Source: Bacteroidota bacterium (GTDB lineage Bacteria > Bacteroidota > Bacteroidia > CAIKAF01). From it: a stretch of DNA of 37,490 nt. Made by a program: the position numbers and the translations under genes. This document shows, piece by piece, positions 6,998 through 14,470 of the stretch (its first letter is position 1; each line of letters begins with the position of its first letter). The stretch is from NCBI GenBank assembly GCA_016866335.1, contig VGMT01000020.1, forward strand, positions 1 through 37,490, in the 5' to 3' direction. Below the pieces are notes generated by a model that was given only the letters and a program-made list of their open reading frames with translations, was not told the origin of the DNA and made no database searches.

Positions 6998-7141
6998 GGG
7001 CGGCGAACGGGCTTTCGCGGCTACTCCGCGTACCGAAACCGGGCCAGCCCGCGCCCGGCAGGAGCTCCTCGCGTCGCTCTGCCGATCAAGGGCCGGATGC
7101 CGTTTCGGTCCTTGCGGGGTAGCCAGCTCAATCCCTGCCGC
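6998..7141 (-). repeat. Dispersed GC-rich hairpin element, copy 2 (diverged)
   Basis: Type-A end GGGCGGCGAACGGGCTTTCG at 6998 preceded by a T-run; type-B end TCAATCCCTGCCGC at 7128-7141. The core is diverged (GCTCCTCGCGTCGC). It lies 14 bases after gmk, where it could form the transcript end. Confidence 0.8.
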
Positions 7142-12411: not shown

Positions 12412-12450
12412 ACGCGGGTTGCGACCGTTTTTCGGACTTAGATTTTTTTG

Positions 12451-12595
12451 GGGGCGGCAGCCGGGCTTTCCGGGTTAGTCCTCGGTGCAGGATTGGGGCA
12501 CTGCCTAGCGGCCCGTAGCTCCCAAGGTCGCTCGGCCCGCAAGGCATTGCCAGCCAACCTGCCCGCTGCGGGCTATCCACGTCAATCCCTGCCGC
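12451..12595 (-). repeat. Dispersed GC-rich hairpin element, copy 3
   Basis: The type-A end is GGGCGGCAGCCGGGCTTTCC near 12452, preceded by a T-run. The core appears inverted (GCTCCCAAGGTCGC, 12518-12531) and the type-B end is TCAATCCCTGCCGC (12582-12595). It lies directly downstream of the DUF4293 gene. Confidence 0.8.
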
Positions 12596-12643
12596 AGTAC
12601 CGAAATCCCTTCGTTTGCGAAATCTGCGAGGCTGCCTGGGGCC
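12584..12643 (+). repeat. 60-base direct repeat, first copy
   Basis: It starts AATCCCTGCCGCAGTACCGA and ends GAGGCTGCCTGGGGCC, and is repeated without a mismatch at 12716-12775 (offset 132 bases). Both copies begin with the type-B end of the hairpin element, so a second partial element was inserted or duplicated here. Confidence 0.85.
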
Positions 12644-12715
12644 ATCCTGCCGCCCGGCTTCGTTGGTCGGCCTTAAGAGCGCCGGTTGCCTTGCCCCTTG
12701 GGGACAGCCCGAATT

Positions 12716-12775
12716 AATCCCTGCCGCAGTACCGAAATCCCTTCGTTTGCGAAATCTGCGAGGCTGCCTGGGGCC
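12716..12775 (+). repeat. 60-base direct repeat, second copy
   Basis: Exact copy of 12584-12643. Its right edge, CTGCCTGGGGCC, is the point where the sequence switches abruptly to AT-rich DNA (the cassette remnant). Confidence 0.85.
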
Positions 12776-12973
12776 CAAATTATTGCCAACGTGGGTGGTG
12801 TTTCAGGAGTTGATGAACTTAAAAGCTATGGAGATGTAACAGTTGAATTAACTTCGAAATTTTGGACTATGTTCGTTATATCAATTATTATGTTTATTGT
12901 CGACATATATTTTGCAAGGAAATTGAATAATATTAATTCGTCCCAAGATAATCAGGGAAATGAAACTAAATAA
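12776..12973 (+). pseudogene. 5'-truncated membrane-protein remnant in a gene-cassette position
   Basis: The frame ending at 12973 codes for about 65 residues from VGGVSGVDELKSY through one strong membrane helix (FWTMFVISIIMFIVDIYFA) to a polar tail (NNINSSQDNQGNETK). Its base composition is clearly more AT-rich than the flanks. The 5' side is cut off by the GC-rich direct repeat, and the frame's upstream codons there are repeat-derived. I do not recognise the family. It ends 45 bases before an attC-like hairpin, the usual layout of an integron gene cassette. A short intact gene starting at an internal codon is possible but less likely. Confidence 0.55.
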
Positions 12974-13017
12974 GTTTAATAATATTAGAATTTCAAAAGA
13001 AACTGATCAAGAACAAG

Positions 13018-13143
13018 CCCATAACAGCACCTAAAAGAAATTGGCGGAAATGTGCTCCGTAGAAAGATTTGTGGTAAAAGAATTTTTCTTCTCCGCAAAA
13101 GCATCTCGGTTAAAACCCGCCAACTTCTTTTAGCCGCAAAACG
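13018..13143 (+). repeat. Integron attC-like imperfect hairpin
   Basis: The left arm CCTAAAAGAAATTGGCGG (13030-13047) and right arm CCGCCAACTTCTTTTAG (13117-13133) are near-perfect reverse complements, apart from one mismatch and an extra base. They are flanked by CCATAACAGC on the left and GCCGCAAAACG on the right. The ~125-base length, outer core-like TAAC and ACG ends, and asymmetric AT-rich middle match the long attC sites of chromosomal integrons (VCR-like). The expected GTTRRRY after AAAAC is present only as its first G; the sequence then changes to the next gene. Homology to known attC models is not tested. Confidence 0.55.
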
Positions 13144-13152
13144 GACCCTGTA

Positions 13153-14247
13153 TTGCGGATGCACTACAAAGCACTTACGGCTGCCCAGTGGGAAAAGGTA
13201 TATCCCATTGCTATTTTAGACGAAATTCAAAAAGAGCCCTCTTTGATTGAAAGCATTAAGGCGGTTTACGACCAATTTGAGGACCCCAGGTATTTGCTCT
13301 TGGGCAGCAGTCAAATCATGCTCCTAAAACAAGTAAAGGAAAGCCTTGCCGGGCGGTGCATCGTTGAAGAGTTGTATCCGCTAACCCTAACAGAAATGCA
13401 AACGGATGGCTTTGACGTTCCGGCTCGGCTGTCTGGATTTCAGCAAATGCTAAAGGAATTAAAGCTGCCCAACATGGCCCCTGCTCTGCAAATGGATGCC
13501 CGACACCCCCAGATTTTAGCCGCATTTTCTAATTATTTACAGTTTGGCGGGTACCCTGCGCTAACTTCGGAAGGGCTGAGCGATTCAGAGAAAAGGGAAT
13601 GGCTGCGCAACTACCAACGGACGTATTTGGAAAGAGATGTTCGGGACCTTGCGGAATTCCGGAATTTAGAACCTTTTGTTCGAATTCAAAAAACGGCAGC
13701 CCTTTCAACCGGGCAGCTGATAAATTACTCTTGGCTAGCCAAAGAGGCTGGAGTTCAAATCAATACTGCTCAACGGTTTATTCATTATTTAGAGCTGAGT
13801 TATCAGGCCATATTGTTGCCCTCATGGCATAAAAATGCATTGAAAAGACTCGCTAAGTCGCCCAAGATTCATTTTTTAGATCCTGGGGTACAGCGCAGCA
13901 TTGTCGGAAATCTTGAGGGGAACCTTTCTGGCCATGAATTTGAAAGCGCCTTGATTGCCGAAATGTACAAGCAGGCCAAAAACATGGGTTTTACCGGGGA
14001 TTTTTACCACCTTCGAACCCTAGACGGGCGGGAGTTGGATTTGTTGATTGAAACTCCTGAAGGGTACATGGCCGTCGAAATCAAAAAAAGCAACAGGGTA
14101 AATGCAACGGATGCTCGGCACCTTAAAGGATTGGAGGATTATCTTGACAAGCCTATTTTACAGCGCCTTTTGCTTAGCCAAGATCCAGAGGTAAAGAGCC
14201 TGGGCAATGGAATTATGGCATTGCCGGCCGCTTTGTTTTTATCATAA
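13153..14247 (+). pseudogene. N-terminally truncated ATP-binding protein (AAA_14/DUF4143 type)
   Basis: 364 codons. The frame enters directly at the Walker B region (IAILDEIQKEPSLI, residues ~17-30). It continues through the sensor segment (YLLLGSSQIMLLK) and the family motif FGGYPALTSE and RTYLERDVRDL. The DUF4143 C-terminal nuclease-like domain has GHEFESALIAEM, GRELDLLIETPEGYMAVEIKKS. Full-length relatives carry ~80 more N-terminal residues with a Walker A GxxxxGKT; these are absent. The missing part ends where the attC-like hairpin ends. Available starts (TTG 13153, ATG 13159) lack a promoter. ATP binding is therefore probably lost. The remaining frame is undamaged, so the truncation looks recent. 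D and ExK nuclease-like residues (ELDLLI, VEIKK) are kept. Confidence 0.75.
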
Positions 14248-14312: not shown

Positions 14313-14456
14313 GCGGCAGGGATTGACGTGGCCAGCCCGCAAAGGGACGAGCGGAAGCCGCTGCCGCTAAAAAAGAGCGACCTTGGGAGCTCCTTTTTTA
14401 GCCACAGCGGCCCGCTTGGAACTGCGGACTGAGCCCGGAAAGCCCGGCTGCCGCCC
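14313..14456 (+). repeat. Dispersed GC-rich hairpin element, copy 4
   Basis: Type-B end GCGGCAGGGATTGA (14313-14326), core GCGACCTTGGGAGC (14377-14390), type-A end GAGCCCGGAAAGCCCGGC...GCCGCCC. It sits between two converging genes and ends 14 bases before the tsaB stop side. On the minus strand it follows a T-run just after tsaB. Confidence 0.8.
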
Positions 14457-14470
14457 AACAAAAAAACGTT

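Follow-up and report, generated by a model that had tools for sequence, protein, structure and literature searches.

Integrons of the sedentary chromosomal type and of classes 1-3 are built from a tyrosine recombinase, an attI site and arrays of mostly promoterless-looking, single-ORF cassettes. Their attC sites have an R''/L''/L'/R' layout with the crossover after the G of GTTR, are complementary to the start of their own cassette, and fold better as the bottom strand. The elements of Bacteroidia described here are alike in all of these respects. In contrast to the integrase IntI of those integrons, however, the Bacteroidia recombinase has no IntI-specific insert, scores below the cut-off of the family model TIGR02249, possesses an additional domain at its N-terminus and falls into a clade of its own, and its attC sites, mostly of one length class, are not common to those genomes of the phylum that have a canonical IntI. 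In Treponema the integrase gene lies upstream of attI in the direction of the cassettes, aimed at the array, and its product has the IntI-specific domain that the Bacteroidia enzyme lacks. The Bacteroidia recombinase gene is likewise upstream of attI and faces the array. Treponema integrons are the subject of PMC3607928.

A survey with IntegronFinder 2 credits Bacteroidetes proper with just one complete integron, that of Salinibacter (PMC9024848), and we found no account of a Bacteroidia integron system in a literature search outside which most subscription papers lay. The system is organised as an integron, its enzyme lacks what defines an IntI, and we have not found this variant described. 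An enzyme devoid of the IntI recognition domain may be the reason why surveys have found almost no Bacteroidia integrons. The starting point was a 37,490-nt stretch of a Bacteroidota draft genome (contig VGMT01000020.1 of assembly GCA_016866335.1), referred to throughout as the window.

A cassette remnant and its attC site

The features of the window locus are as follows:

12692-12775, no strand: copy of a GC-rich repeat, 87% identical to a first copy at 12560-12643
12776-12973, plus strand: 3′ end of a cassette ORF (from the ORF list), 65 codons and stop, with one predicted membrane-spanning stretch, start lost
13017-13143, plus strand: attC site (covariance model R1 and fold), crossover expected after G 13143
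13019-13025, plus strand: R''-type core CCATAAC (alignment to the model)
13031-13047, plus strand: 5′ stem arm, L'' side (inverted repeat)
13117-13133, plus strand: 3′ stem arm, L' side (inverted repeat)
13134-13143, plus strand: CCGCAAAACG, R'-side end as far as the crossover G (compared with the sites of loci L050 and L072)
13144-14247, plus strand: 5′-truncated AAA_14/DUF4143 ATPase gene (the Pfam AAA_14 match begins at position 64 of the 129 in the profile; same-genus homologue)

The original prediction read this locus as an AT-rich 3′ gene fragment followed by an imperfect hairpin with paired arms and core-like ends, in the ORF-then-attC layout of a cassette. All three elements are borne out. 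The ORF ends at 12973, and GC content at 12776-13016 is 28.6% against 49.7% for the window. The hairpin lies, to the base, where it had been placed: its two arms are 94% complementary and 69 nt apart, ATAAC is found at 13021-13025 and AAAACG ends at 13143, and the whole site has the ends GCCCATAAC and GCCGCAAAACG. The 251 nt from 12950 to 13200 fold at -36.4 kcal/mol compared with a shuffled mean of -22.7 (z -4.35), a value equalled by none of 200 shuffles. Covariance model R1, built from 36 attC-like sites of other Bacteroidota with the window site and its nearest kin left out, picks out 13017-13144 with a score of 59.3 bits; the E value is 2.3e-11 for a search of 96 kb and 5.9e-10 genome-wide, which demonstrates the identity of the site as an attC. 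Compared pairwise, it is closest to the attC sites found at L061 and L072 (69% identical).

The window site has an R''-type core and an L''/L' stem. The first letter of its R'' core 7-mer is C, not the R of the RYYYAAC-like consensus, and it has no R' core GTTRRRY: the crossover G is followed by GACCC, which is host sequence, and the TTR of a complete site is absent. GTTR is present at the crossover in Bacteroidia-type sites outside the window. Because the letters after the G belong to the next cassette in an array, the window site is the right end of a cassette that has no neighbour. Its two strands fold almost equally well (-23.3 top, -23.6 bottom). No relatives of the ORF remnant were found among the collected loci.

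Strong hairpins are frequent in intergenic DNA, and GC-rich interspersed repeats with inverted copies lie nearby, so the possibility has to be weighed that the likeness to attC is accidental and the hairpin an ordinary chromosomal structure, such as a terminator, a REP-like repeat or an RNA element. We regard this as next to impossible in view of the genome-wide E value of 5.9e-10 from an independently trained model, and of core letters, a spacing of 121 nt and an AT-rich ORF immediately upstream that are all like those of true cassettes. In addition, a search of Rfam with the hairpin returned no fitting family, and the stretch is single copy in its 2.45 Mb draft genome. The model score together with the linkage of such sites to recombinase genes rules out, in practice, a chance hairpin, a terminator or a REP. 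Positions 13017-13143 and 12776-13143 are, we are confident, an attC site and the 3′ remnant of its cassette, of a Bacteroidia type of integron with its own recombinase, attI and same-direction cassettes, stranded in the chromosome.

Recombinase, attI and cassettes in Bacteroidia

The absence of an integrase from the window had been pointed out, and a search of the contig to which the window belongs likewise yielded no integrase-like gene. A profile search of the genome with the integron integrase model led to another contig, C29, where one gene matches in two pieces with a gap between them:

C29:1706-2848, minus strand: recombinase gene, 380 residues (integron integrase model search)

The order on the minus strand of C29 is recombinase, attI (89 nt after the recombinase gene, ...CGCCTATAAATGAG^TTATAGCC), a 472-codon ORF, attC (GGCTATAACAGCGTGTAAGC...GCCTACACGCCAACCG^TTACCAGCC; 46.7 bits with R1) and contig end. 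The cassette start GTTATAGCC is complementary to the start GGCTATAAC of its own attC, as is required if the cassette was once circular. The checks set for the original prediction, an attC score, further copies of the hairpin and an integrase IntI, come out in its favour with one correction. R1, a model made for such sites, scores the hairpin strongly, an integron-type recombinase with attI and cassette is present on C29, and related attC sites lie there and, by the genome-wide R1 search, on contigs C51, C55 and C31; the recombinase, however, is not a canonical IntI, of which the genome has none above cut-off. Since the enzyme lacks the IntI-specific domain and falls under the TIGR02249 cut-off, a strict search for IntI would find nothing.

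Three stranded cassettes, each followed by attC, were seen in this genome (L120 on C51, L121 on C31 and L119 on C55); their genes, named by eye, are a nucleotidyltransferase/HEPN-like pair, a CobW-like GTPase with a Fur-like gene, and a HipA-like gene. With isolated attC sites on C55 and C31 as well, a stranded cassette is no rarity in this genome. On a further contig, C37 (L016:1-680), two different Bacteroidia-type recombinase genes are represented in tandem by their 3′ ends, each with its own attI-like site; the second fragment begins directly behind the first attI (G^TTAAGGGC), and the arrangement may be a product of integron recombination.

Relatives of the recombinase are encoded in 550 candidate stretches of GTDB genomes, and the best 80 (L020-L099), almost all from Bacteroidota, were kept with their flanks. 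A count of the motif YATAACNGY gave a mere two-fold excess downstream of the recombinases, and a stem search was used instead. Downstream of the recombinases it recovered 75 attC-like sites in sense orientation and 1 in antisense, with none in 682 kb upstream or in shuffles. From TAAC to the crossover G most of these sites measure 121-125 nt, compared with 121 in the window. Compensatory change is seen in 14 of 14 modelled pairs (training set); stem cells are paired in 87.9% versus 52.1% when shuffled, and covariation is 0.816 versus 0.199. The bottom strand folds better in 65 of the 75 sites (P 2e-11). An attI site is conserved in 20 loci, ~100 nt past the recombinase stop codon, and ends roughly in TATAxAxxAG^TTR. 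Genome G057, closed as a single contig, has 21 attC matches behind its recombinase, spread across ~37 kb and all on one strand.

The cassettes obey the rule expected of circular cassettes, in that the start complements its own attC. Among cassettes shorter than 2 kb from three genomes (G057, G496 and G379), own start and own attC agree at 5 of 5 positions in 20 of 23, and the next start in 0 of 23 (P 6e-5). The attC sites for this comparison were taken from the covariance model, whose matches give a clear result; the stem search misses many G057 cassettes, and the own-start result obtained with it there is misleading. Such an integron consists of the recombinase gene, attI ~100 nt downstream, and cassettes with every attC in the direction of the recombinase gene. 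In the proposed mechanism, which is that of known integrons, a circular cassette would present its attC as a folded bottom strand, and recombination with attI would take place behind the G of GTTR.

Across 247 sampled genomes of the class (recombinase at E <= 1e-50, attC at E <= 1e-4), the recombinase is present in 126, attC in 178 and canonical IntI in 1. Sites were found in 118/126 recombinase-bearing genomes versus 60/121 of the others (P 1.4e-15); the latter may be CALIN-like or reflect draft gaps. Half of the sampled class thus has the recombinase and ~70% has attC, against hardly any integrons reported by the main survey tool, and if this is true a cassette reservoir has been overlooked in a group that is among the commonest bacteria in soil and water. 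In a sample of 296 genomes from the whole phylum, 84 have a canonical IntI above the NCBI cut-off, and all but one of these 84 lie outside the class; in this sample the two recombinase types split the phylum between them. In 18 canonical-IntI genomes the Bacteroidia model gave nine attC matches, in five genomes, and because such matches are few the Bacteroidia attC type goes with the Bacteroidia recombinase. No related recombinase was found in phage records at E 1e-40.

The recombinase and its N-terminal domain

The catalytic residues of tyrosine recombinases (R, H-x-x-R, H and Y) are invariant in 37 sequences of the Bacteroidia enzyme, as R237, H327, R330, H353 and Y362. The insert around patch III, which is used to separate IntI from other tyrosine recombinases (PMC9668308, PMC2426708), is missing from all members inspected in an alignment with IntI1 and other IntIs. 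TIGR02249 scores are 194-208 bits, under the curated cut-off of 265 bits. The nearest NCBI family is NF040815, whose NCBI name already reads 'tyrosine recombinase/integron integrase'. In a tree of 38 rows, a small sample with long branches, the recombinase forms one clade (99/95) that is sister to IntI and not inside it, apart from Xer (96/90). XerA, XerC and XerD have the same catalytic core and fold and also lack the insert; they differ in that the Bacteroidia recombinase is linked to attI/attC arrays and has the C-terminal motif RSPFDDL in common with IntI, to which it is sister. Its gene adjoins attI and cassettes on C29, in 20 loci and in the closed genome G057. The core of an AlphaFold model (mean pLDDT 86) resembles Xer (4a8e, Z 24) and VchIntIA (2a3v, Z 20).

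This recombinase presumably catalyses the recombination of attC with attI. The attC sites could nevertheless be genuine and the arrays moved by another enzyme, such as XerCD or an unlinked recombinase, the adjacent gene being incidental. In favour of this are the half of recombinase-negative genomes that still have attC, the missing insert, which is reported to be necessary for IntI activity, and the Xer-like model that is the nearest NCBI family. We consider it improbable, because in many genera attC begins directly after the recombinase and a conserved attI, always on the same strand, attC and recombinase co-occur strongly, canonical IntI is found in just one of the 247 class genomes, and the tree places the recombinase clade next to IntI as its sister, away from Xer.

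The extra N-terminal domain (85 residues) is modelled by AlphaFold as five strands and two helices with a conserved W...W. Its top PDB profile match is the HARP domain of SMARCAL1 (4o66, E 0.006), and Pfam HARP is detected in 3 of 30 members. HARP domains likewise consist of five strands and two helices and have been counted among junction-specific DNA-binding domains (PMC4666394). The likeness in strands, helices and W...W extends to the HARP domain of T4 UvsW and to the damage-recognition domain of XPB; unlike these, the Bacteroidia domain is fused to a tyrosine recombinase, and the structural match is weak, with a best Z of 5.3 (XPB), a Foldseek E of 0.30 for 4o66 and no significant fold match in a PDB search.

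From the profile match to HARP, a weak one, we tentatively suggest that the HARP-like domain could read the folded attC instead of the IntI insert. A wider reading, which we put forward with rather more doubt than conviction, is that the Bacteroidia integron recombinase never had or has replaced the IntI-specific domain, a HARP/XPB-like domain recognising the folded attC; that its position as sister to IntI would make this an ancestral or parallel integron; and that its arrays would form a large, uncounted reservoir from which cassettes, blaVEB for one, would have passed to class 1 integrons. Whether attC recombination needs the extra IntI domain can now be tested directly.

The ATPase junction and plasmid-borne pieces

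The cassette remnant starts directly behind the GC-rich repeat that ends at 12775, and its 5′ part was probably lost there. On its right, the truncated ATPase gene is joined to the attC G no more than one base from the crossover; one G is common to both sides, which leaves an ambiguity of one base. The same-genus homologue reads ...AGCATAGAG|GACCCCGTTATG where the window has ...GCAAAACG|GACCCTGTATTG, and the 5′ half of the gene with its Walker A motif was not found elsewhere in the draft genome. The cassette would probably have entered the host ATPase gene by insertion at a secondary site, or else a rearrangement would have brought the two together, and the 5′ part of the cassette and the 5′ half of the ATPase gene would later have been lost at the repeat.

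Secondary-site insertion, with the left part later lost at the repeat, is the best fit. The join at 13143 may instead have arisen when a subsequent deletion or rearrangement happened to end there, or be a chimera of the assembly, a serious contender to which we give a little less than an even chance. The missing left half of the ATPase gene, the left border at a repeat, a target of G|GA rather than G^TT or GWT, the one-base ambiguity left by the shared G and, for a chimera, the draft state of the genome all speak for it. It is opposed by a join within one base of the crossover, in a gene that apart from this keeps collinearity with its homologue at that point, and by the other isolated attC sites on C55 and C31.

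GC-rich repeats around 'AATCCCTGCCGC' are found at 12443-12775 and 14313-14465, and also at 7130, 23167 and 33333; inverted copies flank the ATPase fragment on both sides, and the repeat occurs in many intergenic places in the genome.

Pieces of Bacteroidia-type integrons are also carried by plasmids. Two loci bear on the resistance gene blaVEB:

L110:4133-4855 (Klebsiella michiganensis IncC plasmid NZ_CP084417): truncated Bacteroidia-type recombinase and attI directly before blaVEB-3
L134:2500-3579: second locus of the blaVEB observation

On IncC plasmids of Klebsiella and Aeromonas, a 5′-truncated Bacteroidia-type recombinase is followed by ...TAGGGAG^TTAGCGG and blaVEB-3. A class 1 integron carries blaVEB-1 after attI1 (...AAACAAAG^TTAGCGG), the same as the blaVEB-3 context from the crossover onward. 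That blaVEB stands at both types of attI with the same crossover supports the attI assignment. The attC of blaVEB-1 matches the Bacteroidia model (30.8 bits, E 1.5e-5), and none of the remaining class 1 cassettes on these two stretches gives a match. This suggests that blaVEB passed through a Bacteroidia-type integron, and a plausible source for this resistance cassette is thereby gained.

A plasmid of Chryseobacterium sp. SNU WT5, a trout isolate, bears a Bacteroidia-type integron (L109:7770-16810) with several attC matches, the best at 104 bits; it includes a group II intron gene and two long attC-like repeat copies that accompany a cassette for a Crp/Fnr regulator. Finally, on the Salmonella Agona IncC plasmid CP082616 (L111:5019-5483), a fragment of a Bacteroidia-type recombinase, 69% identical over 160 residues, adjoins mph(G)-mef(C).
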